Positions 16,906 to 48,622 of a stretch of 64,000 nucleotides of DNA are shown piece by piece. The stretch spans positions 1 to 64,000 of the forward strand of contig NZ_FMID01000004.1 of the NCBI RefSeq assembly GCF_900095385.1, written 5' to 3'. The position numbers and the translations under genes are program-made. The notes beneath the pieces are model-generated. The model had not been told where the DNA came from, did not search any database, and worked only from the letters and a program-made list of their open reading frames with translations. Source of the DNA: Methanoculleus chikugoensis (GTDB taxonomy: Archaea > Halobacteriota > Methanomicrobia > Methanomicrobiales > Methanoculleaceae). Every line of letters starts with the position of its first letter. Position 1 is the first letter of the stretch.

Positions 16906-16923
16906 TACTCCAGGAGATTAGAG

Positions 16924-23540: not shown

Positions 23541-24368
23541 CTACACCCGGCACGTGCGGCATACCGGATCCAGGTTCATTTTTTTCTGAAATGCCCTCCT
23601 GTTCTTCAGGATCGTTGCTAGGTTATCCACCAACAGATTCCCGAGCGAAAGATCTGCACGGTAGCAGCAAGGAGCAACATCTCCATTCCATCTGACAAAA
23701 AGGGTTAGCCTGAATAGGGGGCAGGGCCGGGAGTGAACCACCGGCAAGGTCACTTTGCACCCGGTTTTTTTTGCGGCATTTTTAATATAGGCGAAAAGGT
23801 CTTTTTCCGATTCCGTCTGCGCTTCCGTCCACGGGAAGGAGCGTTCGAAGTTCACGGCATCGATCCCGGTTGCGCGGGCAAGATCAAACCCCTCCTCGAT
23901 GCAATTTGAATTTCCCTCTATAAGGGCAATGTTCAGGTACGTCTTCGGGGATTTCCGGTTTCCGGCGGATCGTTTCCGGATAAATCCGCTGACATTTCTC
24001 TCGACAATCGGCCCGAACAGGTGTGAATCCGGAAAACTGAAGGCGATCGCATCGAGCCCGGAGTTCAGGAGTTCGTCCGTTCTTCCGGGCAGCAACGTCG
24101 CATTCGTAGTAAAATTCACAGACATTCTCTTCCCGGAAGCGTAGGAGATCATCGCAGGAAGATCTGCATGCAGGAGCGGTTCCCCCCACCCATGGAGTGT
24201 CAGGAACCGGCTCTTCGAGGCATCGATGATCTTTCGGAACGCCTCAAAAGTGATGGATTCCTCCGACCGGTTCAGGGAACTGCGCAGACAGAACGGGCAA
24301 TTAAGGTTGCAGGCCGTCGTGGGCTCCAGCTGCAGGATCGGAGGTACTACATAGTCATACACTGACAT
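23541..24368 (-). CDS. Radical SAM protein with SPASM-like C-terminal cysteines
   Basis: The 275-residue enzyme has the radical SAM motif CNLNCPFC (about residues 19-26), the Gly-rich GWGEP and a C-terminal Cys cluster (CPLF, CCYRADL, CRTC), as in SPASM/Twitch proteins that bind extra Fe-S clusters and often modify peptides. The reaction is unknown. It is the last gene of a minus-strand operon behind a strong-RBS 60-residue gene (17 bases apart) and two paralogous membrane proteins. Context allows two readings: maturation of the small protein as a peptide substrate, or synthesis of a cofactor or metallophore. Neither is proven. Confidence 0.85.
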   Translation of the reverse strand: MSVYDYVVPPILQLEPTTACNLNCPFCLRSSLNRSEESITFEAFRKIIDASKSRFLTLHGWGEPLLHADLPAMISYASGKRMSVNFTTNATLLPGRTDELLNSGLDAIAFSFPDSHLFGPIVERNVSGFIRKRSAGNRKSPKTYLNIALIEGNSNCIEEGFDLARATGIDAVNFERSFPWTEAQTESEKDLFAYIKNAAKKTGCKVTLPVVHSRPCPLFRLTLFVRWNGDVAPCCYRADLSLGNLLVDNLATILKNRRAFQKKMNLDPVCRTCRV

Positions 24369-24385
24369 ACTGTATCTTACGGTGT

Positions 24386-24568
24386 CTATGTGGCACGAAC
24401 GATGTCCGGATCTGTCTTTGGATCTTCCCAGATGCCCAGAAGAGCACCCATTGCCTTCCTTACACCATTGGAGTTCATCACTACGATTCCTGCAATCAGT
24501 CCGACACCCAGGATATGGGCCGCCGCAAGACCGATCGCCGCTTCAGGAAGAATTACGGGTATGCACAC
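24386..24568 (-). CDS. Small 60-residue hydrophobic protein upstream of radical SAM gene
   Basis: A GTG start at 24568 is preceded by a near-perfect GGGAGGTGA ribosome-binding site, strong evidence for translation. The product has a hydrophobic, Gly/Ala-rich segment (about residues 9-30, including AAHILGVGLIAGIVV) and a polar tail with GALLGIWEDPKTDP. It could be a one-helix membrane subunit of the adjacent transporter-like proteins or a substrate peptide of the radical SAM enzyme 17 bases downstream. No known family was recognised. Confidence 0.7.
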   Translation of the reverse strand: MCIPVILPEAAIGLAAAHILGVGLIAGIVVMNSNGVRKAMGALLGIWEDPKTDPDIVRAT

Positions 24569-24629
24569 GCGAGTTCACCTCCCTTGGTTTCATAGATATG
24601 CATAACTTTTACAAAAAGATAAATATTTC

Positions 24630-25430
24630 TCATTGACCCTGCACCAAGCCGTCATCTGCTTTGCTGTACATCTTCACGAGAAGATCGATTGCATATGCGC
24701 CGGATGCAGATAGCACTCCGCCGACTGCGGCGACGCAGAGCAGTACCGGGATGATATCCGGGGCTACAGGGAATCTTCCTGCGAATGAACTGCCCCAGAA
24801 CAGCCAGAAGTGAAGGAGATAATACATGTTGGCAATGGCGGATGCAGCCAGATACTTTGCCGGGTGGCGGTAGCAGATCACTGCGTAACAGAGAGCAATC
24901 AGTGAGATAACGACGTAGCCTAGCGGGAACGAGGTGGCTGGCGCACCGTTCTCTCCCATCTTGGCCTGCCCGGCAAGGAAAAGGAGCAGGGTCGTCGCAC
25001 CAAGCACGGCCAGCAGCGCGGGAGTCACATACTTCAGGGGGGTGTTCGTGAGGGGAAGCATGGTCAGTATCTCGATGATCACGGCGACGAGTACTATCAC
25101 GTCGATTGCATGGATGCTGACAGCCTGTGTTCCGATGAGGAGGTCGATGGCGACGATCAGCAGCGACATGACCGCTGCTGTTCCCGGTTTTTTCACGAGA
25201 AGAAGACCGAGGACAAGCCAGAAGCACAGGATGCTCCCGAAGACGAACACACCCGCTCCCGGCCCCGGCAGTATCAGGAACTGGTGGACGAACCCGGCAA
25301 TGCTGCCTCCGGGCAGGAGATACACCGGCGCATACGTACCGCTGAAAACGGCAAGTATAGCAAGCAAGGCAATCATCCCCAGTTCCCTGAAGGAGAAGTA
25401 TCCGGTTGATTTCATTTCTTTTCCGATCAT
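24630..25430 (-). CDS. Polytopic membrane protein, ECF S-component-like (paralogue 2)
   Basis: The 266-residue protein has six or more helices and shares with its neighbour (25476-26345) the blocks YLLPGG, LPGPGAG, LVKKPGT and AKMGENGAPATSFPLGY. The first helices and KPGxA-type loop resemble YkoE-like ECF substrate-binding subunits, but no ECF ATPase is nearby, so this is tentative. The ATG at 25430 overlaps the stop of a 10-codon leader frame (ATGA) and seems translationally coupled to it. Genes follow in the order paralogue 1, paralogue 2, small protein, radical SAM. Confidence 0.75.
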   Translation of the reverse strand: MIGKEMKSTGYFSFRELGMIALLAILAVFSGTYAPVYLLPGGSIAGFVHQFLILPGPGAGVFVFGSILCFWLVLGLLLVKKPGTAAVMSLLIVAIDLLIGTQAVSIHAIDVIVLVAVIIEILTMLPLTNTPLKYVTPALLAVLGATTLLLFLAGQAKMGENGAPATSFPLGYVVISLIALCYAVICYRHPAKYLAASAIANMYYLLHFWLFWGSSFAGRFPVAPDIIPVLLCVAAVGGVLSASGAYAIDLLVKMYSKADDGLVQGQ

Positions 25431-25459
25431 TGGCGCACATCCCAAAACAGTTGTGTCAT
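25427..25459 (-). CDS. Ten-codon leader frame coupled to the membrane protein gene
   Basis: ATG at 25459 follows a strong AGGAGGGAGG site and encodes MTQLFWDVRQ before a TGA that overlaps the next ATG (ATGA, 25427-25430). The downstream gene has no good ribosome-binding site of its own, so it may depend on reinitiation from this mini-frame. It could also be chance. Confidence 0.4.
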   Translation of the reverse strand: MTQLFWDVRQ

Positions 25460-25475
25460 TTGATCCCTCCCTCCT

Positions 25476-26345
25476 TCACTGGTTAAACCGTGCCAGCGGA
25501 CCTTCTCCCCGGTAGGTCTGGAAAAGGATGTATACGCAGTATGCCAGGAACGCCATCACTGCACCGCAGACAAAGGCAAACGTCAGGAGCGGTGGGATCG
25601 CCAGGGGCACCGGAACCCAGGTGAAGAGGCCGGTCTTCCCATGGGTTGCCCAGCGGAAGACGATGTTGAACATCTCCGCGCAACCGGCGCCGATGATGAA
25701 CTTCACCGAGGGATACGAGAAGAAGATGACGGCAAGACCAAGGGCAAAGATACCGGATACCGCGTACCCGAGCGGGAAGACGGTAGCCGCCGCGCCGCTC
25801 TCGCCCATCTTCGCGTTGCCGGTCAGCATCAGCGCAAGGGTGATGAGGCCCATGATCGTGAGGAATGATGGAAAGATGTACCGGTACGGTTTCTTCTCCA
25901 GCGACAGCAGTCCTGCTCCCTCGATGATGATCGCAACGAGGAACGGCAGATAATCAAACCGGACATTCCCTCCGGTTATAAGCGACGCCGCTGTGCTAAG
26001 AATGACCATCAGGAAGGTCACACACAGAACAGTGCCGGGTTTTTTTACCAGGAGGATCGCAAGCACAAGCCAGACACAGATGAAGGCGCTGCTGATGAAG
26101 ATGCCCGCTCCCGGTCCGGGTAATTTTAGAAATCCGTGGACAAAACTCGGGGCAGTCCCTCCCGGAAGGATGTAGCGAAGCCCGTAACTGCTCGTAGCGA
26201 ATGCGACAATTGCAAAAAAGACGATCACTCCCCAGTCATGTAAAGAGAAATATCCTGTTATTTTGCCGAAATCTCCTTTTAGTACAGCTTCCTTGTATGC
26301 TGCTATTCCCTCTAATTCACCTTTTTGTACCGCTTTTTCGTTCAT
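25476..26345 (-). CDS. Polytopic membrane protein, ECF S-component-like (paralogue 1)
   Basis: The 289-residue protein is a paralogue of the next gene, sharing LPGPGAG, LVKKPGT and AKMGESGAAATVFPLGY; a soluble N-terminal extension of about 35 residues is unique to it. The start MNEKAVQKGEL at 26345 was chosen because GAGGTGA lies six bases upstream; a longer frame to 26450 lacks support. It is the first gene of the minus-strand operon and diverges from the FmdE-family gene at 26546. Substrate is unknown; a vitamin- or metal-complex role is only suggested by context. Confidence 0.75.
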   Translation of the reverse strand: MNEKAVQKGELEGIAAYKEAVLKGDFGKITGYFSLHDWGVIVFFAIVAFATSSYGLRYILPGGTAPSFVHGFLKLPGPGAGIFISSAFICVWLVLAILLVKKPGTVLCVTFLMVILSTAASLITGGNVRFDYLPFLVAIIIEGAGLLSLEKKPYRYIFPSFLTIMGLITLALMLTGNAKMGESGAAATVFPLGYAVSGIFALGLAVIFFSYPSVKFIIGAGCAEMFNIVFRWATHGKTGLFTWVPVPLAIPPLLTFAFVCGAVMAFLAYCVYILFQTYRGEGPLARFNQ

Positions 26346-26401
26346 TTCAGTCACCTCAACGGATTTGAAGTCCAGTTCTTCGCCGGGGAACAGTCGGGCA
26401 C

Positions 26402-26545
26402 GAAATGGACTGAATATTGGTTTCACTCCCGGACAAATAAGGATATTCATTTAACTTATCCAAATGTCAAAGATTATATGTTAACTCATCTGAGACATAT
26501 ACGGTATGAAGCTGTTAGAGCAGATAGCAGGAGCCGGGAGGAACG
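26402..26545 (+). promoter_or_regulatory. Conserved upstream region of FmdE-family gene 1
   Basis: This 144-base region aligns with 46161-46299 in front of the second FmdE-family gene, beginning with the identical GAAATGGACTGAATATTGG. Both contain an imperfect palindrome (CATATACGGTATG here, 26496-26508) and a short frame starting at its ATG whose stop overlaps the gene's start. Such conservation of non-coding sequence suits a shared promoter/operator, possibly metal-responsive, or simply recent duplication. Confidence 0.5.
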
Positions 26546-27109
26546 ATGGCCGATAGTGATCTCCTCCTGGCACGGGCAAAAGAGTTCCACGGCGACATGT
26601 GCGCCGGGATCGTGCTCGGGACCCGGATGACGATGATCGGGATGCGGGAGCTCCACATGGACCCGATGGTAAGAAACAGAGATCTTATCGTGTACGTAGA
26701 GATTGATCGCTGCATTGCGGATGCAATCCAGGCGATCACGGGGTGCTCGCTCGGCCACCGCACTCTGAAATACCTGCCTTACGGCAAGTTTGCCGCCACG
26801 TTCATCAACCTGGCGACACAGGATGCCGTCAGGGTCTCGGTCCTGGAGAAGAAGCGGACGGAGAAATCCGGTCCCGAAGCTATGAAAGAAGCAGGAAAAA
26901 TTCTGCGTGACGCACCGGAGGATGATCTCTTCAGGGTGCGGAGAGTCAGGGTCATGATCCCGGATGGCGACCTTCCCGGCCTCCCGAAGCACCGGGCTCG
27001 CTGCAACAGGTGCGGCGAAATGATCCTGGACGACAAGGAGATTGTGACGGAAGAGACGATCATGTGCGGCAATTGCGCCCGGGGATCGTATTACACAGAG
27101 ACGGAGTAA
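26546..27109 (+). CDS. FmdE-family protein with C-terminal zinc ribbon (copy 1)
   Basis: The 187-residue protein has the FmdE N-terminal motif FHGDMCAG (about residues 14-21), a central RCIADAIQAITGCSLGHRTL with conserved Cys/His, and a C-terminal ribbon with CNRCGE and CGNC. FmdE was named from the molybdenum formylmethanofuran dehydrogenase operon; stand-alone members bind metals through His/Cys and are mostly uncharacterised. There is no fmd operon here. It converges with a methyltransferase 19 bases away, an arrangement repeated at 46.3-47.7 kb. Metal sensing, delivery or chelation is the reasonable inference. Confidence 0.88.
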   Translation: MADSDLLLARAKEFHGDMCAGIVLGTRMTMIGMRELHMDPMVRNRDLIVYVEIDRCIADAIQAITGCSLGHRTLKYLPYGKFAATFINLATQDAVRVSVLEKKRTEKSGPEAMKEAGKILRDAPEDDLFRVRRVRVMIPDGDLPGLPKHRARCNRCGEMILDDKEIVTEETIMCGNCARGSYYTETE

Positions 27110-27128
27110 AGATTGTTCCGGAAGGGGA

Positions 27129-27977
27129 TCACCCTTCCTTTTCCCACCAGATTTTTGCCTGATATGACGTCCCACGAAGCAGGTAATTCCCGTTATCAGG
27201 CTGTAATTTCTGCGTCAAGAACTCACGGAGTATCGATTCCTGCTCTTTTGTGGTCAGCCCCAGGCCGGCCCCCTGATCGGCCACCGCCTCGTCGATGCTG
27301 GAGAAACTCGTAATGTGCCCTTCCTTCGATATTTCAACATTGGCATAGATGCCAAGTTGATTGAGCAGGTTGAAGATGATATTTGGCCTTCCGGGTTCTT
27401 TGTTTGGAACCCCGAAGAGATGTTCCCAGATCTCACCGTAATTCCGTCGCCAGGGAGACTGCATATCTGCGAACCAGAAGATGTACACGTATTTCTCCGA
27501 GGCATCGTTCATTTTCAGCAGGGCATCGCGGAGGTCGGGGAAACCCAGCGAATAAGATGCCACCACGATGTCGTAGGGGGGATCGAGGTCCGTCGAAATA
27601 TCCAGATCCTCCCACTTCCGGGTAAGAACCCTGATATTTCGTATGCCGGATGCCCGTATATTCTCCATCAGGCATTCAGCCATCCCGGCAGAGGGTTCGA
27701 TCGCGGTAACGTGCCGGACGAGTCCAGATAGGGGGACGGCGAGCGTACCGGGACCGGCTCCGATATCCAGAACCCTGGATGCCGGGGTGATCTTCATCGC
27801 CCGGATTCGTGCCCACGACCGCCCCCAGTTGTCCGCTTTGGCCGTTTTGTCATATTTTCTGCATCGTTTTGGATCCGACCACCGACCAAGGCAGGAGATC
27901 GACCCTCTGCTCCCTTTCTGTCCGGGCCCCGATCGTTTCCATTCTTCGTTCCAGTCAATCTTGCCGATATCGATCAT
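27129..27977 (-). CDS. Class I SAM-dependent methyltransferase (module A, 1)
   Basis: The 282-residue protein has the SAM-binding motif VLDIGAGPGTLAVPL (about residues 69-83), the acidic loop IEPSAG and the post-I region DIVVASYSLGF. A Trp-rich N-terminal segment (IDWNEEW) recurs in the related methyltransferases here. The C-terminal LGIYANV block is shared with those at 46845 and 47793. The ATG at 27977 was chosen for its purine-rich GGAGAGGAG site. The methyl acceptor is unknown; the link to FmdE and binding proteins suggests a small metal-binding molecule or corrinoid/tetrapyrrole rather than RNA or protein. Confidence 0.85.
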   Translation of the reverse strand: MIDIGKIDWNEEWKRSGPGQKGSRGSISCLGRWSDPKRCRKYDKTAKADNWGRSWARIRAMKITPASRVLDIGAGPGTLAVPLSGLVRHVTAIEPSAGMAECLMENIRASGIRNIRVLTRKWEDLDISTDLDPPYDIVVASYSLGFPDLRDALLKMNDASEKYVYIFWFADMQSPWRRNYGEIWEHLFGVPNKEPGRPNIIFNLLNQLGIYANVEISKEGHITSFSSIDEAVADQGAGLGLTTKEQESILREFLTQKLQPDNGNYLLRGTSYQAKIWWEKEG

Positions 27978-28147
27978 CCGTGTTTCCTCTCCTCTCCAAT
28001 ACCCGGCTCTCTGTTTTCCTGCAGTGCTATAAATATTTATTATTGACAAAATTAAAATGTTTAATGGTATTATTATACTTTCGACATCCGGATCGTTTTC
28101 CGGCGGCAGACTCTCCGGTATGCTTCAGAGATCAGGACAATGAGACC

Positions 28148-29011
28148 ATGATGTGCGACACTCCCATAACAATTCTTGAAAAGGCGTATGCAAAACTCAT
28201 CGCCGAATACCGGCGGCTCAGGCTGCCGGAACCGGCGGTAAAGAACTTCGGCCTCAACCCGGGCTGGAATGCCGTGATCGGGACCAGGGGGTGCTCAGGA
28301 GTTGCCATGAGTTTTGTGGACAACAACCCGCTCTACGGCACAGAAGAAACACGGCAGGATCTGGTATTTTTACAATCCTTTGTCGGAAAACCCCTCTTTG
28401 AGGTTGCATCCGCTTGCCTTGCCGAACCCCGTATCAGCAGGCGTTCCGTTGCTCTTGCCGCGCTCAACGCACTCTCACAGCCGCTCGTTACCGATGAGGT
28501 ACTGCTGGCAAAGGGATATTCGGTCGGGATCGAGGTCAAAGACCAGGTAAAAAGCGATGATAAGATGGTTATCGTCGGGTACGGTGGGCTGGTGAAGAGC
28601 TATGCGGGGCGGTGCCGCGAACTGCACGTCACCGACCAGCGGCCGCCGGAGACGTTCCGGACAACGGTTGTCGGCGACACAATCAAGTACGGACCCGCAG
28701 GCATCATGGTCCACCCGGCGGAGGAGAACAAAGAGGTCCTTAGGGACGCAGATGTTGCGATCATCACCGGCTCGACGCTCGTCAACGGCACCTTTGAGGA
28801 AGTCGTCGGGTATGCGAAGCATGCCCGAATCCGTGCGCTTTACGGCTCGAGCGCGCAGTTGATCCCGGACGTACTCTTTGAGAACGGGATCAATGTTGCG
28901 ATGTCCGTTGCCATCAGCGATCCGGCAAGGTTTGAATATGATGTGATGAATGCGCCGGACATGGAGACGGCGCTCCGGAAGCACCAGCGGAAGTATAACG
29001 TGAGTATGTAA
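28148..29011 (+). CDS. DUF364/DUF4213 putative heavy-metal chelation protein (copy 1)
   Basis: The 287-residue protein has a DUF4213-like N-terminal part (about 1-90) and a DUF364 Rossmann-like C-terminal part (about 110-270) with MVIVGYGGLV, VTDQRPPE and AIITGSTLVNGTF. The Pfam description of DUF364 is a putative heavy-metal chelation domain, based on structure; biochemical function is unproven. The start MMCDTP at 28148 was chosen; upstream in-frame codons have no clear site. It stands alone on the plus strand between two methyltransferases. A second copy heads the transporter operon at 52 kb. Confidence 0.85.
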   Translation: MMCDTPITILEKAYAKLIAEYRRLRLPEPAVKNFGLNPGWNAVIGTRGCSGVAMSFVDNNPLYGTEETRQDLVFLQSFVGKPLFEVASACLAEPRISRRSVALAALNALSQPLVTDEVLLAKGYSVGIEVKDQVKSDDKMVIVGYGGLVKSYAGRCRELHVTDQRPPETFRTTVVGDTIKYGPAGIMVHPAEENKEVLRDADVAIITGSTLVNGTFEEVVGYAKHARIRALYGSSAQLIPDVLFENGINVAMSVAISDPARFEYDVMNAPDMETALRKHQRKYNVSM

Positions 29012-29356
29012 TGGCTCTTATGGCTCCTGGACGGGAAACCTGTGTGGTTAGATGGAATGTGAAATTCTAACCGAATGTGACATTTTTTTTGTAATTCAGT
29101 TCAAGGAGCATGCCTGTGAGGTCTGCCTGCAACCCGGCCTGACGATGACCGGGCATACAGGCGATACAGTTGAACTGCTCAACCCGGCTATCTCTCCGAA
29201 AACAGACAACGCTTGGGCGATTGTATACCGTAAAAGCAGAATATTGATCTGGTATATGTTCAGATCCGGGCGCCCTGACAGGGATTGCCCGGAACTGATC
29301 CCATACCGGCCCATGGGATCCCAAACAGCGCTCACGGATCCGCATGAATCCGGAGA
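29012..29356. other. Convergent intergenic region with poly-T terminator
   Basis: About 345 bases between the ends of convergent genes. A run of eight T at 29083-29090 on the plus strand is a likely archaeal terminator for the DUF364 gene. Weak open frames elsewhere show no domain. Confidence 0.5.
29083..29090 (+). terminator. Poly-T transcription terminator
   Basis: Eight consecutive T residues, 72 bases after the DUF364 stop. Archaeal RNA polymerase terminates at such runs without needing a hairpin. Confidence 0.55.
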
Positions 29357-30241
29357 TTATGATCCTTTCGCTTGTTCCTCAATATTCACGTTCCATACCA
29401 TCATGCCGGAATACCCCTCGGAGACAGAGTGGTACTTTCCGTCCACCGCTGCTGCCTTGTAATAGTCCCGAACTTTTTTCTCTGTCGCTGCCGTGCATCC
29501 CCCCCTGCGTTCAAGAGACTTAATTGTGCGGTCGGCCGCCTCTTCCCAGCCAACAGCAGTCTCCCTTTTGTTATGATTGACCCGCACGATGGGACGGTAA
29601 CCGTTCAGGTACAGGTACATGAAATTGTACATGAACCCGGACATCGAACCGCGGGAGGGCCGGGGCGACTCTTTCTCGAGGATCTTCCTGAGGCCCTCGT
29701 CATTGGCCTGACCCCTCCCGCCCGGGAGGAAATGGCTGTAATAGCAGAACTTCCGGGAACAGGCGATCATCCGCTCGAAGGTCTCAAGGTCCTTGACCGA
29801 AGGCGTTGCAGAGACCACGACAAGATCGAACTTGTTCCGCAGGCCGAGCTCGTCGATGTCTGCCGTCCACCACGAGGCCTCGATCGGCTCGATCGAGAGC
29901 CCTTCGCATTCCGCGTTGTCCTTCAGGTACTCAAGGGCCTTATACGAGATGTCAAGCGATGTCACCTCTGCACCGGCGCGGGCGAGCGGGATGGATATCG
30001 CCCCCGGCCCACACCCGATATCGAGTACGCGGGAACCTTCCGCCCGGAACCCGACCTCATCCAGCAGCGAGAAGATCTCATCCATCCGCTTCTGTCTCTT
30101 CTTCGGGTCAAGCACCTTTGCAAAGTTGTCGGCCCGCTCGTTCCATAACTCGACCGACCCGAGCTTGCTCATGGGGTCAGGTGTACCTCTCGACGATTTC
30201 CAGCAGTCGATCCAGTTCTTTACATTCGTGTCCTGGTGCAT
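29357..30241 (-). CDS. Class I SAM-dependent methyltransferase (module A, 2)
   Basis: The 294-residue protein has motif I VLDIGCGPGAISIPLA (about residues 79-94), the acidic loop SLDISYKAL and post-I DLVVVSATPS. The N-terminal NWIDCW segment parallels the related enzymes here. The start at 30241 (MHQDTNVKNW) was preferred for spacing to AGAGGATT. It follows the substrate-binding protein by about 140 bases on the same strand and probably closes the operon with three CooC-like ATPases. The acceptor is unknown. Confidence 0.85.
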   Translation of the reverse strand: MHQDTNVKNWIDCWKSSRGTPDPMSKLGSVELWNERADNFAKVLDPKKRQKRMDEIFSLLDEVGFRAEGSRVLDIGCGPGAISIPLARAGAEVTSLDISYKALEYLKDNAECEGLSIEPIEASWWTADIDELGLRNKFDLVVVSATPSVKDLETFERMIACSRKFCYYSHFLPGGRGQANDEGLRKILEKESPRPSRGSMSGFMYNFMYLYLNGYRPIVRVNHNKRETAVGWEEAADRTIKSLERRGGCTAATEKKVRDYYKAAAVDGKYHSVSEGYSGMMVWNVNIEEQAKGS

Positions 30242-30378
30242 TTTTAATCCTCTGGTTGTTTGTTGCCTGCAAAAACAACATGCAGGCAATTGTGTGTTCA
30301 TCTGACTGTTCACCCTACGAGTTCCCGCGGAACGTGTTGATTTACCCTACCGATATCGGGCACAACGGGACCTTTTTT

Positions 30379-31521
30379 TCACCCGGATAGCAGCGAAGTC
30401 AGCTCCTCATCGCTCAGGTCGACATGGTAGAACAAATGGTAGAACTCCTTTGCCTTTGCCCGGAACCACTCTTCGGAAAAGAGGTCCGGGTAAAGGAGAT
30501 GCGCTGTCCACGGGATGCCCACGATCCGGTTGACGCCCGGCGGGCGGTCGAACCAGTTGTATGGCTTGTTTGGTGTCAGGTAGACCCTGCGGTTCTGCAC
30601 GGCCGGGACCAGCTGCCATACCGTATCGTCATAGACCTGAGCGGTGAATTCCTTGCTTGTTGTGATGATCAGGTCCGGTTTCCACACCAGCACCAACTCC
30701 TTGGTCACGGTCGCTGACGAGGAACTGAACGGGGCGTCGGTGCCGGCTACGTTGATCCCGCCGCAGACATCGATCAACTGCGAGTGGCACGAACCGCCGG
30801 CATCGGTCGAGAGACCGTCGGTACCTTCCGCATAATAGACCCGCACGCGTTTTTCCTCCGGGATCGCGGCGACCTTTGTCTGGACCTCGGCGAGTACGGA
30901 CTGGTAATACGCATTTTGTCTGGCAGCCACATCGGGAACGCCGAGGACATCGCCCATAAAGAGGAGCGTCGGGCCGTACATGGTGGCGTTGCGGGCATTG
31001 TCCACGCATACCGCCGGGATAGTCCCGAGTTTCTCCTGGGTCAGGTCCGCTTTCCCGGGATCTGAGAGCCCCGATTCGCAGGAGATGAAAACAAGATCCG
31101 GGGACATGGCAATGTAGGCTTCATAGTTGGTCGAACCCCCGCCGGTAGTGGTGAGACGGGTCGAAATCGATGAGAGGTTCAATCCGCTCTGGTTGGTTGC
31201 AGAAGATTCGACGTTCCCCAGTTTCTCCGGCGCAAGCATGTACACGAACGTTGTCGGGGGCGGGCCGGTACAGAGCACCAGGGAAACGTTTGCGGGGATG
31301 GTTACCCTGCGCCCGGCCATATCGGTTACGGTTCGATACGAGGCATTCTGTTCCACAAATTGTCCGGACGGGAGTGTGCTCTCACTTACGGCAGAGGAAC
31401 CGGGCGTCGCTGCCGGGGCCTCCGCCACCACATTGTTCAGTTCGACAAGCACGACGTACATGCCGCATACAATGGCCGCAAGCAATGCGACGACGACTAT
31501 CCACGAAATTTTATTCTCCAT
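30379..31521 (-). CDS. FecCD-type metal-complex substrate-binding protein (module A)
   Basis: The 380-residue protein has an N-terminal membrane anchor or signal (about 7-30), then a class III binding fold with VTDMAGRRVTIP, two lobes, and the C-terminal block RPPGVNRIVGIPWTAHLLYP that also marks the protein at 39047. No FecCD permease lies in module A, so it must use one encoded elsewhere, for instance at 41641 or 50726. It lies 18 bases after a CooC-like ATPase, an unusual partnership between an extracellular binding protein and cytosolic metal-insertion-type ATPases. Confidence 0.88.
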   Translation of the reverse strand: MENKISWIVVVALLAAIVCGMYVVLVELNNVVAEAPAATPGSSAVSESTLPSGQFVEQNASYRTVTDMAGRRVTIPANVSLVLCTGPPPTTFVYMLAPEKLGNVESSATNQSGLNLSSISTRLTTTGGGSTNYEAYIAMSPDLVFISCESGLSDPGKADLTQEKLGTIPAVCVDNARNATMYGPTLLFMGDVLGVPDVAARQNAYYQSVLAEVQTKVAAIPEEKRVRVYYAEGTDGLSTDAGGSCHSQLIDVCGGINVAGTDAPFSSSSATVTKELVLVWKPDLIITTSKEFTAQVYDDTVWQLVPAVQNRRVYLTPNKPYNWFDRPPGVNRIVGIPWTAHLLYPDLFSEEWFRAKAKEFYHLFYHVDLSDEELTSLLSG

Positions 31522-31539
31522 TGACCTGACTCTCCAGTA

Positions 31540-32337
31540 TCATGTTCTTAGCGGGGCACAACCGGACTGTGCCGCATGGACTCCCTCGATCATCTCGATA
31601 ACCGACATGACAGCAGGGTTGCCTGCAGGAAGCGGACAGCCCGTGAACCCGGCTCCGAGAATGGCACGGTCCTGCCCGAAATCTGCGATGATCCGGAACG
31701 AATCCGGCAATGCGTTCCGGAGGAACGCAGACGAATGCACATCCGTTTTATTCAGGACGAAATAGACGGGGACATGCACCTGATCTGCCATACCCGACAC
31801 GGTCGCTGCAAGACAGATGGACTCGTACGAGGGGTCGACGACCACGATGATGGCATCGCATGCCTCTCCCATCTTCCGCGCAAGGTGTTCTACCCCCGCA
31901 TCGGTATCGATAATGACCCGATCGTCAGCGGCAAGAACCAGCCCGGCAAGAAACTGGCGGGCAAGTCCGACCCAGCGGCCTTTGCCGAACTGCGTTGCAT
32001 CGCGGATCTTTCCCACCGAGACCAGAGCCACGCCCCTGTTCTCAGAAAGATATTCCGGGGGAATTGTGTCAAAGGTCCACGTGCCCAAAAGCGGGGTCCC
32101 GCGAGGGATCCCATTCTGCCGGGCATTTCTCATGGCCTCCCTCATCGACCGTTTCCCGCTGAAGTACCCGGTCAGGTCCGGGGGTGCGGCTGTTCCAAGG
32201 ATACGGTGAAGCCCGACATTTGATACATCGGTGTCCAGGACTACGACCCGTTTTCCCTCCGCAGTATATTGTCGGGCAAGGAGCGCGGTGATCGTACTCT
32301 TTCCTGACCCGCCTTTTCCGCAAATCATCAGTTTCAT
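31540..32337 (-). CDS. CooC-like deviant Walker A ATPase (third of tandem trio)
   Basis: The 265-residue P-loop protein has the deviant Walker A CGKGGSGKST at residues 6-15, switch I DTDVSNVGLHRILG and switch II VIIDTDAGVEHLARKM, and NKTD in the base-recognition region. This is the SIMIBI class like CooC, which matures nickel sites in CO dehydrogenase, and ParA/MinD relatives. The Cys pair that binds nickel in bacterial CooC1 is not evident. The ATG at 32337 is used. The adjacent genes are two paralogues upstream and a metal-complex binding protein downstream. Confidence 0.85.
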   Translation of the reverse strand: MKLMICGKGGSGKSTITALLARQYTAEGKRVVVLDTDVSNVGLHRILGTAAPPDLTGYFSGKRSMREAMRNARQNGIPRGTPLLGTWTFDTIPPEYLSENRGVALVSVGKIRDATQFGKGRWVGLARQFLAGLVLAADDRVIIDTDAGVEHLARKMGEACDAIIVVVDPSYESICLAATVSGMADQVHVPVYFVLNKTDVHSSAFLRNALPDSFRIIADFGQDRAILGAGFTGCPLPAGNPAVMSVIEMIEGVHAAQSGCAPLRT

Positions 32338-32422
32338 GGTTCCACTCAAAGGGTATGTTTTTAAGCCTGGGGAATGGTGTTCTTTTTAACTGGCATTGTA
32401 ACTCTCTCGCGGGAAATCAGGA

Positions 32423-33193
32423 TCACCCCTGCAGGACTGCAAGGTTATCGAGGACTGCTGCAGCCACAGGGTACCCGCCAGGGAGCGCCCGACCTTCAAT
32501 TCCGGCCCGAAGAAGTTCCGGGTCATGGGGGAATTCCCCGATAATCGGGTTCCCGGCCGGGATGACCTTCCGGAGAAACGGGGATGTGTTCACATCGGTT
32601 TTGTTCAGGACAAAATACAGGGGTACGTTCACAAAATCCGCCATGCCCGATGCCCGTTCGGCAAGACGGACAGATTCGTGCGAAGGGTCGATGACCATCA
32701 GGACGGCATCACATGCGGCATCGATTCCCCGGCCGAAGTGCTCGATGCCCGCTTCCGCATCAACGATGACCCGATCATTCTCTGCAAGATCCAGCCCAAG
32801 GATGAACTGCCGGGCAAGCGCCATCCATGGCGATTTGCATGCCACGGTTGTATCCCTGATTTTCCCGATTGTCACCAGTTTTACCCCGTCATTTTCCGAG
32901 CTGAAATCCTGCGGGATGGTGTCATACGTCCAGGTGCCGAGCAGGGGAGTTTCCGGTGGGATTTCGGCCTGCCGGAGAGCCTTCATCTTCTCCCTCACCG
33001 ACTTTTCCCCGTTGAAATATCCGATCAGGTCCTGAGGGACACCGGTCCCAAGGAGGCGGTGGGGGCCGAGCACCGTTGAGACCTCCGCGTCCACGACAAC
33101 AACCCGTTTCCCGACATGCGCATACTGCTTTGCAAGGAGCGCCGCAACCGTGCTTTTTCCTGACCCGCCTTTTCCGCAAATCATCAGTTTCAT
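32423..33193 (-). CDS. CooC-like deviant Walker A ATPase (second of tandem trio)
   Basis: The 256-residue paralogue has CGKGGSGKSTVAALLAKQY, switch DAEVSTVLGPHRLLG and VIVDAEAGIEHFGRGI. In the switch II region DAEAG replaces the DTDAG or DTEAG of its neighbours. The start at 33193 was chosen for GGGAGGAAT just upstream. It lies 85 bases before the next copy and is presumably co-transcribed. It may form heterodimers with the neighbouring copies, since this class dimerises on ATP binding; that is inference from the family. Confidence 0.85.
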   Translation of the reverse strand: MKLMICGKGGSGKSTVAALLAKQYAHVGKRVVVVDAEVSTVLGPHRLLGTGVPQDLIGYFNGEKSVREKMKALRQAEIPPETPLLGTWTYDTIPQDFSSENDGVKLVTIGKIRDTTVACKSPWMALARQFILGLDLAENDRVIVDAEAGIEHFGRGIDAACDAVLMVIDPSHESVRLAERASGMADFVNVPLYFVLNKTDVNTSPFLRKVIPAGNPIIGEFPHDPELLRAGIEGRALPGGYPVAAAVLDNLAVLQG

Positions 33194-33260
33194 GGTAATT
33201 CCTCCCGGGAGATGCCGGAAGAACCGGTGTGGTTCTGGGCATCTGCGCCGGCATTGGTCA

Positions 33261-34046
33261 TTATCCGGCGGGACATGTCCCTTCGACCCGGGCTGCAAGG
33301 CGTTCCAGGACCGCGGCCGCGGCCGGGTAACCGCTCGGCACCGCCTGGCCCATAAGACCGGCTTCGATCAGCACGGGGTCGAGGGTAAACTCGCCGATGA
33401 TCCGGGCCGTGTCCGGAATGGTGTCCCGCAGGGCCGCCGAAGTGGCCTCATCCGTCTTGTTCAGGATAAAGTACAGAGGTACGTCGATCGAGTCCGCCAT
33501 GCCCGAGATCTTCCCGACAAGGCACTGTGACTCGTACGAGGGGTCGATGACCATGAGGATGGCGTTGCACAACGTGTCGAACCCCCGGCCGAAATGCTCG
33601 ATGCCGGCCTCGGTATCGATAATGACACGATCGTTTTCAGCCGGTGAGAGGCCGAGGATGAACTGCCGGGCAAGCGCGCTCATGGAGCATTTGCAGCCCT
33701 CGGTCGCCTCGTTGATCTTGCCGACCGAGACCAGCTGCACACCATCCTGTACCGAGCTGAATTCTTTGGGGATCGTGTCATAGGTCCATGTTCCCAGAGC
33801 AGGCGTGTCCGCAGGAACATCCCCCCGCCGCGACCCGCGCATGAACTCCATCATCTTTGTCTTGCCGCCGAAATACCCGATCAGGTCCGGTGGGGGGTCC
33901 ATCCCCAGGATTCGGTGCAGCCCGACGTTGGACACATCGGTATCAACGACCACGACCCGCTTTCTCTCACGGGCATACTGCCGGGCCAGGAGCGCGGTGA
34001 TCGTGCTCTTTCCGGATCCGCCTTTTCCACAGATAATCAGTTTCAT
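33261..34046 (-). CDS. CooC-like deviant Walker A ATPase (first of tandem trio)
   Basis: The 261-residue paralogue has CGKGGSGKSTITALLARQY, DTDVSNVGLHRILGMD and VIIDTEAGIEHFGRGF. It is closest to the third copy in switch I and to the second in switch II. The start at 34046 (MKLIICGKGG) follows CCGGAGTA. An AT-rich stretch (34080-34140) upstream is the likely promoter of the whole run of three ATPases, binding protein and methyltransferase. Confidence 0.85.
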   Translation of the reverse strand: MKLIICGKGGSGKSTITALLARQYARERKRVVVVDTDVSNVGLHRILGMDPPPDLIGYFGGKTKMMEFMRGSRRGDVPADTPALGTWTYDTIPKEFSSVQDGVQLVSVGKINEATEGCKCSMSALARQFILGLSPAENDRVIIDTEAGIEHFGRGFDTLCNAILMVIDPSYESQCLVGKISGMADSIDVPLYFILNKTDEATSAALRDTIPDTARIIGEFTLDPVLIEAGLMGQAVPSGYPAAAAVLERLAARVEGTCPAG

Positions 34047-34212
34047 CAGAGTACTCCGGCCTGTTTGCACCAGCCTGCATTAAACAAATTACACTTACTT
34101 TTTGAAAAATATACCTATTTTGTTTTACTCTCCGGTCGATTACTACGAGCCTGAATATCGGACAATTTTTCTTTTGCCTGAAAATTCATCATCTGCCATG
34201 GGAACCTCCCTG

Positions 34213-34790
34213 TTACCCGGACAGTAAGGCGGTGAGTTCCTCGCCGCTCAGATCGTAGTGATAAAAGATCGCGTAGAATTCCTTTGCCTTCTCCCTGAAC
34301 CTGTCCTCCAGGAACAGGCCGGGGTAGAGCACGTGCGCTGTCCACGGGATGCCAACGATCCGGTTGACGCCCGGCGGGCGGGCGAACCAGTTGTATGGCT
34401 TGCTTGGTGTCAGGTAGACCCTGTAGTTCTGCACGGCCGGGATCAGCTGCCATGCCGTATCGTTATAGACCAGGGCAGCGAATTCCTCGCTTGCTGGTAT
34501 GACCGGGTCCGGTTTCCACATTAGCACCGACTCCCCGGTCGCCGCAGGCGACTGAGAACCATCGGGAACCGGGCTTCCCGCGACATTCAGCCCCCGCAGA
34601 CATCGACCAACTGCGAATGAGGCGACCCAATGAGATAGTCGAGAGGCCGGTCGTTCCCCCGGCATAATATACGCGGACTTGTTGTTCTTCGGGAATTCCG
34701 GAGATCCCGGCCTGCATCTCGTCGGGCACGGACCGGAAAGATCCGGCTACCTGCACGTTGCTGCCGGGAAAACGATTGCCATATGTACGA
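34213..34790 (-). pseudogene. Truncated, frameshifted substrate-binding protein
   Basis: The C-terminal half matches the binding protein at 30379-31521 (YRVYLTPSKPYNWFARPPGV, then VGIPWTAHVLYPGLF and GEELTALLSG). The preceding part continues in another frame (IPEEQQVRVYYAGGTTGLST), and the N-terminal half with its signal is missing. It is thus a 5'-truncated copy with at least one frameshift, lying between a methyltransferase and the CooC-like trio. It points to duplication of the binding-protein gene and recombination inside the module. Confidence 0.85.
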
Positions 34791-34804
34791 TTCAGGCCGC
34801 GACG

Positions 34805-35461
34805 TTATGCCGATTTCCTGATTACCATCCAGAACCCGGAATCATCGCTGATGATCCGGTAATCCTCGATCCCGACGGCTTCAATCGAAGATTCGATCTC
34901 CCCGGGCCGGAACTTCCGGAACCGCGGCCGGGACGGGTTGTCCGGGTCGTCCACGATCCCACGCTTCTTCCGCCCGGCAAGAACGCTCTTTCTGGCTTCC
35001 AGGCTGCCGTATCCCCCGCCGATGTATGCCATGCCGCCGGATTTCAGGACCCGGTGGATCTCCCGGAGCGCCCCGGGGAGATCGACCCAGAAATGGTAAG
35101 AACCCCTGCTCACCACGAGGTCGAATGTTTCCCCATCAGCCGGGATCGCATGGACGTCGCCGAGCATGGGGATAACCCTGCCCTCGAGCCCACGGTCATG
35201 GATATTCCGGGCGGCGAGCGACTGCATCTTGGATGAGCTGTCGAGTGCAGTGACCCGGAGATCCGATTGGAGGGCAAGGGCGATCGCGAGCGGGGCGGGT
35301 CCGGATCCCACGTCAAGGCAGGTGCCGCGTGAAATCCCGGTTCGTTCCAGAACCTGCCCGGCGATGACCGGGTAGATTGCGGCGAACGTCGTTTTGGTGA
35401 ACTCGTCGTACTGCCGGGCATCCCCGGCGGTCTTCCAGAAGGGATCGGGTGCCTCGTTCAT
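34805..35461 (-). CDS. Class I SAM-dependent methyltransferase (module A, 3; UbiE-like)
   Basis: The 218-residue protein has motif I CLDVGSGPAPLAIALA (about residues 48-63), the LDSSSKM loop, DLVVSRGSYHFW and a C-terminal RPGEIESSIEAVGI. It is shorter than the other methyltransferases of the island and more like UbiE/COG2226 enzymes. It starts a minus-strand run; the degraded binding-protein gene follows after a short gap. Acceptor unknown. Confidence 0.82.
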   Translation of the reverse strand: MNEAPDPFWKTAGDARQYDEFTKTTFAAIYPVIAGQVLERTGISRGTCLDVGSGPAPLAIALALQSDLRVTALDSSSKMQSLAARNIHDRGLEGRVIPMLGDVHAIPADGETFDLVVSRGSYHFWVDLPGALREIHRVLKSGGMAYIGGGYGSLEARKSVLAGRKKRGIVDDPDNPSRPRFRKFRPGEIESSIEAVGIEDYRIISDDSGFWMVIRKSA

Positions 35462-35593: not shown

Positions 35594-36127
35594 CTATGGA
35601 TCGATCATCACCTTGCTCTTTGAGATAAGTTTTCCTTCTGTAGTACTCACTTGGAGAATCAGGGACTTGCCGACGGGATCAAGATTTACTATGTTTTTCT
35701 TGATAACATCTGTGTAGAACATCGTCTCTCCGGGACGGAATACCGGTACCTCGAAGGCGCCCGTTGTCGAATTGAGCCAGCATTCCCCGCCAGAGTTACG
35801 GATACACGACTTATTTGCAACGATTAATCCCGCACCCGTCCCTTTTTGGCTGAAAAGGCTCATATACCCCCCGAAGTCCTCGTCGTTCTGCTGGATCGTT
35901 ATAATAATTTTTTGTGTTGGCAGTTGATCCCCCCCAGCATGATGAAGCTGGAGAATATCCGAAGACAGGCTGTATGTTCCCTGGATTGTTGCCTGGGGAG
36001 GTTTGGTCTCTGTGCCTATCATGCCCCCCGCGAACGCGCTGACGACCGCCGCGATGATGATCGTCACGACCAAGATCAGCATCACGCCGATGACCGGAGA
36101 AACTGCCGATTCATTCACGCACTCCAT
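35594..36127 (-). CDS. Archaeal type IV pilin, short form (pair 2)
   Basis: The 177-residue protein starts NESAVSPVIGVMLILVVTII, the archaeal pilin signature, then carries the short-pilin features HHAGGDQ, FRPGETM and a terminal KSKVMIDP. It follows the long pilin by 3 bases with a GGAGGG ribosome-binding site. It is the most divergent of the three short copies in the head domain. Confidence 0.88.
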   Translation of the reverse strand: MECVNESAVSPVIGVMLILVVTIIIAAVVSAFAGGMIGTETKPPQATIQGTYSLSSDILQLHHAGGDQLPTQKIIITIQQNDEDFGGYMSLFSQKGTGAGLIVANKSCIRNSGGECWLNSTTGAFEVPVFRPGETMFYTDVIKKNIVNLDPVGKSLILQVSTTEGKLISKSKVMIDP

Positions 36128-36130
36128 GGG

Positions 36131-37012
36131 TTAGCCCTCCACTGAAATATCTTTCTGCCATATGACCTTTCCGCTCGGAGTGTGGATCACTTTCATGGTC
36201 ACTACATCCCCGGCCCTGAGATAGTTCCAGTTGTTCCCGAGGACGGCCATCATCTGGTCGATGCTTTCGGGATATGACTCAAAAGTTGCCCCTTTGGAGT
36301 CCGTCCCGTATGAATACCAGTATCTGCCGCCACCGGTATTACCCTGCGAGGTATCGGCAGCCATGCCATAACCAACAGAGAATCCTCCACCTCCCGTTGC
36401 CTGCCCGCCCAATCTTCCACCGAACGGCCGGGCGAACATAATAGTGCCGGACTGGAGGTTATAATTACCGAACCATGAGTAATTCGTTAATCCTCCCGTT
36501 TCGAATTGAGCCATGGTAGCTGGCTTTGTATAATTTGGACCTTTCTCAAAAGGCCAGAAATTTGTATTTTCCTCTCCACTCAGTCCGACTCCGGGGCCGT
36601 ACCCCTGGGGACAGACGTACGTCCAGTTATCCTTCGCCGACCAGCCGTTGACGACATAGAACACACGGAAATTCCGGTCACCGGGAACCATCGTCGCACC
36701 TCCGTCAATCGTGGTCCCGTTGACGAGCTTCTTGGACCAGGATGTCATGATCTGCAGATCCTGCGTATCAATGGGGTCGTCCACACCCGTTACCTCTGCC
36801 TTGAAGTAACTTGAAGACCAGTAACCTGTGTTGACGATCTTAGCATCCATTATGAGTTTCGGTGCTTTCTGGTCTTCGTTTCCGATCAGGCCCCCCGCGA
36901 ACGCGCTGACGACCGCCGCGATGATGATCGTCACCACAAGCATCAGCATGACGCCGATGACCGGCGAGACCGCCTCTTCACTGGATAATAATTTCATTCT
37001 TGACTGTCTCAT
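36131..37012 (-). CDS. Archaeal type IV pilin, long form (pair 2)
   Basis: The 293-residue pilin has the leader SSEEAVSPVIG, the helix LMLVVTIIIAAVVSAFAGG and a long Gly/Tyr/Asn-rich head that ends LRAGDVVTMKVIHTPSGKVI. It is the longest pilin here, with an expanded Gly-rich loop (about residues 200-235) absent from the other long copies. Presumably exported by the assembly machine at 16.9-20.4 kb or another copy elsewhere. Confidence 0.9.
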   Translation of the reverse strand: MRQSRMKLLSSEEAVSPVIGVMLMLVVTIIIAAVVSAFAGGLIGNEDQKAPKLIMDAKIVNTGYWSSSYFKAEVTGVDDPIDTQDLQIMTSWSKKLVNGTTIDGGATMVPGDRNFRVFYVVNGWSAKDNWTYVCPQGYGPGVGLSGEENTNFWPFEKGPNYTKPATMAQFETGGLTNYSWFGNYNLQSGTIMFARPFGGRLGGQATGGGGFSVGYGMAADTSQGNTGGGRYWYSYGTDSKGATFESYPESIDQMMAVLGNNWNYLRAGDVVTMKVIHTPSGKVIWQKDISVEG

Positions 37013-37025
37013 TGCTCATCACCTC

Positions 37026-37598
37026 CTATGGCCTGATCAGCACCTCGGTCTGTGCAATCGTTCTCCCGGTGTCGTCGACAATACTCAGGATGAAGCGCTG
37101 GCCGCGGGCGTTTTTGTTCTGGAAACCGTAATCCACGTTGTTTACATCGGTTTCTCCAGGCTCCCCACTCATTGCGGGCTGAACCTGCGCAAGATCACGC
37201 ACCACGGCCATCTCTCCCGGCTGGAAGGTGCGGGCGAGTTCGCCTGAGGATTTCTTCGGATCAAACCAGGGCCTGCCCCCTCCATCTTTCGCGACGTTTA
37301 CATTGGCGGTGCTCACTTCCCACCTGAGATGCTCGTAGCCGCCGAAATCTGCTGTGGGAGCGACAATGATCTTTGTCTGGAGCGTGTTGATGGTATCCCC
37401 ACCCGTGTGGGTGATGGTCATGCCGTTGTTCTGGCTGTAGTCCGCCTTGATCGTTGCCTGAACAGGCTTGCTCGTACCGCTCGCGAGCCCCCCGGCAAAT
37501 CCGGAGACGATCGCAGCGATGATGATCGTCACCACGAGCATCAGCATGACGCCGACAACCGGCGAGACCGCATCATCGTTCTTCTCCCGGGAGGTCAT
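37026..37598 (-). CDS. Archaeal type IV pilin, short form (pair 3)
   Basis: The 190-residue protein has the leader KNDDAVSPVVG and helix, then THTGGDTI, FQPGEM and a terminal AQTEVLIRP matching the short pilin at 15110 more closely than that at 35594. Its ATG overlaps the stop of the long pilin upstream (ATGA), so translation is coupled. Confidence 0.9.
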   Translation of the reverse strand: MTSREKNDDAVSPVVGVMLMLVVTIIIAAIVSGFAGGLASGTSKPVQATIKADYSQNNGMTITHTGGDTINTLQTKIIVAPTADFGGYEHLRWEVSTANVNVAKDGGGRPWFDPKKSSGELARTFQPGEMAVVRDLAQVQPAMSGEPGETDVNNVDYGFQNKNARGQRFILSIVDDTGRTIAQTEVLIRP

Positions 37599-38299
37599 CC
37601 CTGCACCCCCACGGTCTTCGTAAATATGACCTTTCCACTCGGGATATGAGTGACCCTGACATCAACGGTGTCACCGGCCCTGAGTTTAGACCACTCCTTG
37701 CCGAGGATTGCCATCATGCCGTCGATGTTAGTCTCCTTCCAATACTCTCCAACAGCGTATTTGTAGGAGTCTGTTGCGCCGTAGCCACTCATTTCGTACG
37801 CTGCAGGCGAACTCTTCATCGTTGTTCCCGCAACTAACGTGTAGTTGGCGAAGTACTGCCCGGTTCCGTAGGTGGTTGTGTTTATCCCTTGTTTACCCTG
37901 GACCCCCTTGCCAAAGCCGATGGGGGAGTTATACTTAAAGCCGTGCTCTTCGTGACCCGGTATTGCAACATTGGTGTTCCACTCTCCGACAGTACAGACG
38001 CCGCCGCCCATTTCCCCGCTCGCTTTCGTCCAAGAGGTCGCGATCTTCAGGTCTTTCGTCGGGATGGGCTCACTCGTCCCTTTTACATCAAACAGGATGT
38101 AACTGCTTCCCGAGTGCCCTGTGTTCACTATCGCCACGTCCATCGTCAGCTGGGGGGCCGCCTTCTGAGTTTCTGTAAGCCCCCCGGCAAACGCGGAGAC
38201 GACCGCGGCGATGATGATCGTCACCACAAGCATCAGCATGACACCGATGACGGGTGATACCGCATCATCTTTTTCTAAAATACGTGTTCTGCGTTCCAT
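37595..38299 (-). CDS. Archaeal type IV pilin, long form (pair 3)
   Basis: The protein of about 234 residues has the leader EKDDAVSPVIG, the canonical helix and a head ending LRAGDTVDVRVTHIPSGKVI. The start MERRTRI at 38299 gives a leader length like its relatives; an ATG ten codons earlier is possible. It is first of four consecutive pilin genes (two pairs) on the minus strand. Confidence 0.9.
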   Translation of the reverse strand: MERRTRILEKDDAVSPVIGVMLMLVVTIIIAAVVSAFAGGLTETQKAAPQLTMDVAIVNTGHSGSSYILFDVKGTSEPIPTKDLKIATSWTKASGEMGGGVCTVGEWNTNVAIPGHEEHGFKYNSPIGFGKGVQGKQGINTTTYGTGQYFANYTLVAGTTMKSSPAAYEMSGYGATDSYKYAVGEYWKETNIDGMMAILGKEWSKLRAGDTVDVRVTHIPSGKVIFTKTVGVQG

Positions 38300-38329
38300 A
38301 GTTTCATGCTTCCGTATCCCCCGGGGCAA

Positions 38330-40162: not shown

Positions 40163-40872
40163 CGGAAAGGGAGATGCCCGAGATCTGTTAATGTGTTTGA
40201 AAAACGAGAGAATTAAATATTATTGTTTGACTTTCGAGAGAAATTAACTGAAGATAAAGTGCTATCTCCCGCCACCGCACTCAACACCCTGCCGCTTGTT
40301 CCAGACAACAATGTTTGTTCAATGGAATGCAGATGTGGCCCCCATGCTGCCACCGCGCCAACCTTTCGCTCGGGAATTTCCCGACAGGTAACCCTGCAAA
40401 AGTCCTCAAACGGCGAGATCAGTTTCAGAAATCGATGAAAAACGATCCCATGTGCAGCCAATGCCGGACTTAATTTGCACACGGGATCTTAGGCAGATAA
40501 CAATACTGGGAAACAGATCACGAGTTGAAATCACAAAGTTAAATGATAAATCTTAACTATTGAGTGATGTAAACATGATTAAGTACAACTGCATTCGGCA
40601 GGTAAAGATAGCGTGTCGAGATATCTGCCAATAAGATGGGTAGTGTTTCAGAATATGACTGAAAATCCATTCCAGTGAATCTGACAGAATGGCGTTAAGC
40701 GATAACGTGTGCTCGTACCAAATACCTGTACAATGAGAGTGTTTCCATTGCCAAACCAGTTGTTTCTTCGATCACTACCTGTTTTTGATCAGTTCAAATT
40801 GGTACGATGCAAAGACACTGAAAAACAGTTGCGTCCAGTAGAGATAGAGATGGCATATAGAGGTGTATTCAG
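40163..40872. other. Long AT-rich divergent intergenic region
   Basis: About 710 bases between the binding-protein gene and the slipin gene, clearly AT-richer than the surroundings from 40480 on. It should hold promoters for both directions. Short open frames at 40223-40438 and 40709-40897 lack domains and good start sites. No terminal repeats of a mobile element were seen. Confidence 0.45.
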
Positions 40873-47735: not shown

Positions 47736-47792
47736 ACTACCTCATGGAAATCACAAAACGTGGCCGGATCTATCTCATGCTCCGGGCACTGG

Positions 47793-48617: not shown

Positions 48618-48622
48618 GCAGC

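Follow-up and report, generated by a model that had tools for sequence, protein, structure and literature searches.

What do the genes gathered at positions 23541-35461 of the window do together, and which metal do they serve? The window is a stretch of 64,000 nucleotides of Methanoculleus chikugoensis (bases 1-64000 of the 174,649-base contig C37; archaeal genome of 2.65 Mb). An earlier note had listed one FmdE gene, three class I methyltransferases, one DUF364 gene, three CooC-like ATPases, one intact and one broken binding protein, a membrane protein pair, a 60-residue protein, and a radical SAM enzyme within 12 kb of this island (Module A), all of which were found with profile searches and alignments. 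On balance, we lean toward the island being part of a molybdenum (Mo) and tungsten (W) acquisition and processing system of the Methanomicrobiales, predicted to pair a type II (MolABC-like) importer with a cytosolic cassette acting on the complex after import. Its directly observed basis is the gene content, the conserved clustering, and a clade-specific linkage to Mo/W genes. Module A comprises the following features (profile matches in brackets).

23541-24368, minus strand: radical SAM/SPASM protein, 275 amino acids (PF04055 4e-12, PF13186 2e-9)
24386-24568, minus strand: small protein of 60 amino acids, GTG start, one hydrophobic (probably membrane) segment (homologue at L025:12753-12950)
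24630-25430, minus strand: mem1, membrane protein distantly like the energy-coupling factor (ECF) S-component YkoE (PF09819 E 0.027, below cut-off)
25476-26345, minus strand: mem2, membrane protein, paralogue of mem1 (41% identity)
26546-27109, plus strand: FmdE_A, FmdE core plus C-terminal zinc-finger-like domain (PF02663 6.6e-31, PF01258 1.9e-4)
27129-27977, minus strand: MT1, class I methyltransferase (motif, AlphaFold2 model, tree clade)
about 28148-29011, plus strand: DUF364_A, DUF4213/DUF364 protein of a putative heavy-metal chelation family (PF04016 7.6e-25, PF13938 1.2e-9)
29357-30241, minus strand: MT2, class I methyltransferase of a clade distinct from that of MT1 (tree)
30379-31521, minus strand: PBP_A, Peripla_BP_2 binding protein (PF01497 6.7e-16)
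31540-32337, minus strand: Coo1, CooC-like ATPase, CxC lost (alignment)
32423-33193, minus strand: Coo2, CooC-like ATPase, second Cys of CxC lost, CKS (alignment)
33261-34046, minus strand: Coo3, CooC-like ATPase, CxC kept, CKC (alignment)
about 34201-34805, minus strand: broken PBP_A copy, C-terminal remnant (71% identity over 126 amino acids)
34805-35461, minus strand: MT3, class I methyltransferase, UbiE-like (PF08241 8.5e-19)

Only FmdE_A and DUF364_A lie on the plus strand; the remaining genes are transcribed on the minus strand in the order MT3, broken PBP copy, Coo3, Coo2, Coo1, PBP_A, MT2, MT1, mem2, mem1, 60-amino-acid open reading frame, and radical SAM/SPASM.

The core of the argument is the trio of MT1, FmdE, and DUF364. 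FmdE_A belongs to its family (PF02663, 107.6 bits against a cut-off of 22.9), and its residues 152-183, with CxxC pairs, match the PF01258 zinc finger below threshold. DUF364_A carries both of its domains (PF04016, 87.7 bits; PF13938, 38.7 bits; cut-offs 23 and 23.5). MT1 has the motif LDIGAGPGT with invariant glycines, as in S-adenosylmethionine (SAM)-dependent class I methyltransferases, and its AlphaFold2 model (predicted local distance difference test score [pLDDT], 90.6) matches structures in the PDB that support a Rossmann methyltransferase fold, so that it can be predicted confidently to be a class I methyltransferase. The nearest folds are small-molecule methyltransferases, including TmtA, an S-methyltransferase, and the related GtmA, both of which act on dithiols; the fold by itself does not identify the substrate. 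MT1 matches occurred in 146 of 149 genomes, some of the matching proteins being different class I methyltransferases; phylogenetic analysis of 126 methyltransferases placed MT1 in a 20-row clade with 100% support (Shimodaira-Hasegawa-like approximate likelihood ratio test). In other genomes, relatives of MT3 adjoin the same modules. A second, O-methyltransferase-like family (Methyltransf_2 plus dimerisation domain) stands beside binding proteins in six genomes (e.g., L034:16706-17749).

The module is not a chance assembly. In genome G080, which belongs to a different family, an 11-kb stretch (L025) holds, in order, FecCD, ATPase, pilins, MT3, DUF364, MT1, FmdE, mem2, mem1, the small protein, and the radical SAM gene. 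Clustering was quantified in nine genomes, including three same-genus pairs, with randomly rotated gene positions as the null (rotation test; p resolution limit, 0.0002). Two-domain FmdE genes lay within 10 kb of DUF364 in 5/5 cases (expected, 0.07) and of a methyltransferase in 5/5 (expected, 0.11), and DUF364 lay within 10 kb of a methyltransferase in 9/19 (expected, 0.60), each at p 0.0002. In a second test (clade test), loci were picked by methyltransferase similarity rather than context, the window was excluded, each locus was counted once, and neighbours were taken within about 10 kb; FmdE or DUF364 stood near 16 of 18 MT1-clade loci versus 6 of 71 loci of other clades (p=5e-11). Twenty 20-kb control regions contained no methyltransferase, FmdE, DUF364, FecCD, binding protein, Coo, CobW, or FdhA gene. 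By all three measures, the co-occurrence for which the earlier note had proposed a neighbourhood search is real and statistically strong, and on it the core of its proposal, an undescribed system for capturing and processing a metal complex, holds.

The neighbours also point to a metal. In the clade test, Fdh, Fwd, MoeA, or molbindin genes were found near 10/18 MT1-clade loci versus 2/71 others (p=5e-7), and in the rotation test DUF364 was near TOBE proteins in 6/19 cases (expected, 0.47) and within 20 kb of MoeA in 6/19 (expected, 0.85). Module neighbours in several genera include FdhA and FdhB (molybdopterin formate dehydrogenase), FdhD, MoeA, and molbindin (TOBE). ModB (TIGR02141, above the curated cut-off) adjoins the module in other genomes, and an FwdD-FwdB fusion, catalytic in formylmethanofuran dehydrogenase, also stands beside it (TIGR03129, 558-577 bits; cut-off, 328). 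In the present genome, C37 carries the FwdDB fusion at 65.5-67.3 kb, another methyltransferase at 67.9 kb, and molbindin at 69.4 kb, 12-17 kb past a second module (Module B, below). Together with the likeness of the binding protein PBP_C to MolA, this neighbourhood favours Mo/W for the MT1/FmdE/DUF364 core.

Module A itself contains neither a permease nor a transport ATPase; if import is its role, it must borrow one of the two FecCD/ATPase sets to its right. The genes to the right are as follows.

35594-38329: four archaeal pilin genes
39047-40162, minus strand: PBP_C, binding protein, 44% identity to PBP_A (PF01497 2.4e-23)
between PBP_C and FecCD permease C: Band 7 protein (gene order)
41641-42768, plus strand: FecCD permease C (PF01032 3.7e-83)
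42765-43559, plus strand: ABC ATPase C (PF00005 7.4e-33)
43756-45582, right of ABC ATPase C and left of Module B: exporter-type ABC protein
46300-46863, plus strand: FmdE_B, Module B, 88% identity to FmdE_A (PF02663 2.8e-32)
46845-47735, minus strand: MTB1, Module B methyltransferase (sequence comparison, tree)
47793-48620, minus strand: MTB2, Module B methyltransferase (sequence comparison, tree)
48623-49846, minus strand: PBP_B, Module B binding protein with a hydrophobic C-terminal tail (PF01497 3.5e-11)
49926-50729, minus strand: Module B ABC ATPase (PF00005 2.3e-32)
50726-51937, minus strand: Module B FecCD permease (PF01032 1.8e-85)
52126-52974, minus strand: DUF364_B, Module B (PF04016 1.7e-44, PF13938 3.9e-20)

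Module B (46300-52974) does repeat the core, as had been claimed, with FmdE, two methyltransferases, a binding protein, and DUF364; alongside them lies a complete set of FecCD permease and ATPase. The permease and ATPase pairs at 41641-43559 and 49926-51937 have the composition of a MolABC-like importer. PBP_C aligned with HI_1472 MolA over the full MolA length (E 2.3e-26); MolA was its third-best solved relative and scored ahead of the siderophore, nickel, and B12 binding proteins in the PDB. For PBP_A, the nearest solved structures were 4pag, 4ovk, and 4hn9, followed by MolA in fourth place. MolBC-A (HI1470-1472) of Haemophilus influenzae, an experimentally shown type II molybdate/tungstate importer, establishes molybdate as a possible substrate of this transporter class (PMC4031551). 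It shares with the island locus a FecCD-class permease, an ABC ATPase, and a Peripla_BP_2 binding protein, but no companion methyltransferases, DUF364, or FmdE have been described for it, and oxyanion binding in the island is predicted only. In the broken binding protein gene, the C-terminal 126 amino acids are 71% identical to PBP_A, and the remainder is truncated and frame-shifted (in-register repeats D2 and D13).

Two side observations concern these families. Proteins of about 590 amino acids join an AmmeMemoRadiSam-like radical SAM domain to a C-terminal Peripla_BP_2-related domain (best blastp, 37% identity, E 1.5e-20); they occur in 63 of 230 genomes of the class, in 15 genera, often next to DUF364/FecCD/methyltransferase modules (L037:12104-13882; L058:15157-16884 and 16872-18749, contig C14 of G000), and the union of a binding-protein domain with a cytosolic-type enzyme is unusual. 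Archaeal type IV pilin gene pairs recur next to metal modules in several genera (35594-38329; L025, L026, L035, L062, L097).

How might such a system work? Which metal is involved, which way it moves, and how the chemistry runs are all inferred. PBP_A, PBP_B, and PBP_C, as their family membership suggests, would capture a Mo or W species and hand it to the FecCD permease and ATPase. In the cytosol, MT1, MT2, MT3, DUF364, and FmdE may alter the ligand of the imported complex or strip it off, the CooC-like ATPases would serve as metal carriers driven by nucleotides, and the released metal would reach the molybdopterin enzymes formylmethanofuran dehydrogenase and formate dehydrogenase, to judge from the neighbours. 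Tentatively, we prefer a chemistry in which a sulfur or oxygen donor atom of the ligand is methylated and the metal thereby released. A more specific version, in which the methyltransferases S-methylate the sulfide or thiolate ligands of an imported thiomolybdate, thiotungstate, or dithiolate metal complex and so release Mo/W in the cell, is a long shot. A processing step is nonetheless biologically plausible, because in sulfidic methanogen medium molybdate turns into thiomolybdate and Mo availability is lowered (PMC10390477).

The first step of methanogenesis from CO2 requires a Mo or W enzyme, and sulfide makes both metals scarce in methanogen habitats; to our knowledge, little is known of how methanogens obtain them there. 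S-methylation, if it does unlock the metal, would be a previously unknown route. A recurrent importer and processing cassette linked to Mo/W enzymes is a named, testable gene set; it would give a likely setting to FmdE and DUF364, families with solved structures that lack an assigned function, and it predicts a new use of methyltransferases, namely metal handling.

Parts of this picture were already known. Genome-context analyses of 2010 tied both families to metal transporters: FmdE genes mostly adjoin those for metal ions (PMC2954224), and DUF364 genes lie near those for tungstate, molybdate, vanadium, and iron (PMC2954201). Like the FmdE (PF02663) described then, FmdE_A has a core domain and a C-terminal zinc finger and belongs to a family found beside metal transporters; function is assigned in neither, but the island gene belongs to a larger recurrent cassette. 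DUF364_A likewise shares both Pfam domains and a neighbourhood of ABC metal transporters, including those for tungstate and molybdate, with the DUF364/DUF4213 protein Dhaf4260 (PMC2954201), whereas its association with MT1-type methyltransferases and FmdE is quantified here. The recurrent union with a dedicated methyltransferase family, the clade-specific Mo/W linkage, and the membrane/peptide/radical SAM add-on appear to be new; searches of the open-licence literature, on FmdE with DUF364 and on an archaeal Mo/W metallophore, turned up no account of the combined module.

Several points weigh against the Mo/W interpretation. The linkage to these metals is drawn from gene neighbourhood only, and the related genomes and loci behind it are not phylogenetically independent samples. 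PBP_A and PBP_C are nearer to 4pag and 4ovk, for which no function could be established, than to MolA. The role of the Coo genes in the island is unexplained, Coo genes being near 0 of 18 MT1-clade loci versus 17 of 71 others (window excluded), and operons of FecCD, ABC, methyltransferase, binding protein, and Coo genes recur without Mo/W genes in Methanoculleus, Methanolobus, and other genera.

These operons lead to the strongest rival, in which the FecCD importer takes in a nickel (or cobalt) complex, the methyltransferases and DUF364 free the metal, and the CooC-like ATPases carry nickel to CO dehydrogenase or other nickel enzymes. In CooC, a cysteine pair holds the metal at the dimer interface, and the CxC site with a lysine-signature Walker A defines the family (PMC6006190). 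All three island ATPases (mutual identity, 58-63%) have the GKGGxGKS P-loop, and Coo3 has both the CxC (CKC) and the deviant, lysine-signature Walker A; at the CxC site Coo2 reads CKS and Coo1 has neither Cys. The genes are under purifying selection (ratio of nonsynonymous to synonymous divergence, dN/dS, 0.19-0.29 overall; Coo1 versus its paralogues, 0.21-0.29; Coo2, 0.19-0.21), and the motif GEGCACPMG is present in 16/16 listed Coo relatives from other genomes. Coo3 thus looks canonical, while Coo1 and Coo2 no longer carry the metal ligand yet are still maintained; a tandem triplet with two such ligand-less copies sets the island apart from the CooC nickel-insertion ATPase. Also in favour of nickel or cobalt are a CobW/HypB-like GTPase adjoining the DUF364 gene DUF364C and a distant likeness of the mem proteins to the family named ABC_cobalt. 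On the other hand, MT1-clade loci elsewhere lack Coo and often have Mo/W genes, two of the three ATPases lack the ligand, and MolA is a far better match for PBP_C than are the nickel-binding proteins of the PDB; we consider this reading unlikely for the island as a whole. The Coo/MT2/PBP_A part may nevertheless handle a different metal, for instance nickel, given that relatives of Coo accompany another methyltransferase clade, one without Mo/W neighbours; Module A may thus combine two related modules. The CooC-like protein had no match in viral contigs.

Doubtful, too, is metallophore biosynthesis, in which the SAM-dependent enzymes and DUF364 would make a chelator for export, which would pick up metal outside the cell and return through the FecCD transporter. 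Several SAM-dependent enzymes are present, the structure paper on DUF364 links it to the synthesis of pterin, flavin, or siderophore-like compounds (PMC2954201), and the gene at 43756-45582 resembles an ABC exporter; but the detected families include no nonribosomal peptide synthetase (NRPS), NRPS-independent siderophore (NIS) synthetase, opine dehydrogenase, or other scaffold-building enzyme, and MT1-family genes often adjoin an importer where no further gene could be recognised as a biosynthetic candidate. Salvage of a corrinoid or other metallated tetrapyrrole by BtuFCD-like import, with the methyltransferases acting on the ring, is very improbable: the FecCD permease scores well against BtuC models, a cluster on the minus strand 10 kb away (6624-13403) adjoins a CobN-type chelatase (above cut-off) to a BtuCD/FecCD-type ATPase, permease, and binding protein, and there is one weak CbiT match, but the BtuC matches all fall far under curated cut-offs, PBP_C is much closer to MolA than to BtuF, MT1 resembles general small-molecule methyltransferases, and Mo/W genes are the module neighbours in other genera. 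Of the specifics in the earlier note, Mo/W is thus favoured and nickel possible for the CooC/MT2/PBP part, and no support was found for a metallated tetrapyrrole.

The left end of Module A is a rarer add-on. Gene order (mem2, mem1, peptide, radical SAM) is identical in the window and G080, and of 232 genomes of the class, these two alone yielded the membrane pair, a rare subset; a scan of 84,980 species with strict patterns found none. Scores of mem1 and mem2 against PF09819 (YkoE) were 15 and 15.9 bits, under the cut-off of 25.2, and a profile comparison with a YkoE-like family gave 41.6 over about 100 residues versus at most 23.9 for control membrane families; by sequence, the pair may be a distant YkoE-type S-component. 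An AlphaFold2 model of mem2, with mem1 as the sole companion sequence, was unusable (pLDDT, 42).

Orthologues of the radical SAM/SPASM enzyme were found in just 4/231 genomes of the class. Its best NCBIfam match, the tungsten cofactor oxidoreductase maturase TIGR04317 (6.5e-25), is likewise a radical SAM family, but the island protein is shorter and lies far under the cut-off (88 versus 380 bits); with orthologues elsewhere outside Mo/W loci, it is weak evidence for tungsten. The small protein has a homologue in G080 (48% identity over 48 amino acids) in the same slot between mem1 and the radical SAM gene. This peptide accompanies the enzyme only in the window and G080, the orthologues of two other genomes having no such neighbour, a distribution that neither supports nor argues against the idea of a ribosomally synthesized and post-translationally modified peptide matured by the radical SAM enzyme. 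Of a second radical SAM/SPASM gene of this type, the SPASM end alone remains, at 40250-40473 (plus strand), between PBP_C and the Band 7 gene.

FmdE_A and FmdE_B stem from a recent duplication (protein identity, 88%; synonymous divergence, dS, 0.24); about 150 bp of upstream sequence was copied along with the gene, which suggests shared control of the two copies. An Rfam search at gathering thresholds found no RNA family, and hence no known riboswitch, in the entire window. A perfect inverted repeat, TCCTGTT-N5-AACAGGA, lies upstream of DUF364_B at 52991-53009 and is a possible regulator site. The G+C content is 49-59% at 23-46 kb versus 56-65% in the rest of the window, which, with the absence of the membrane pair from other genomes of the genus, is consistent with acquired DNA.

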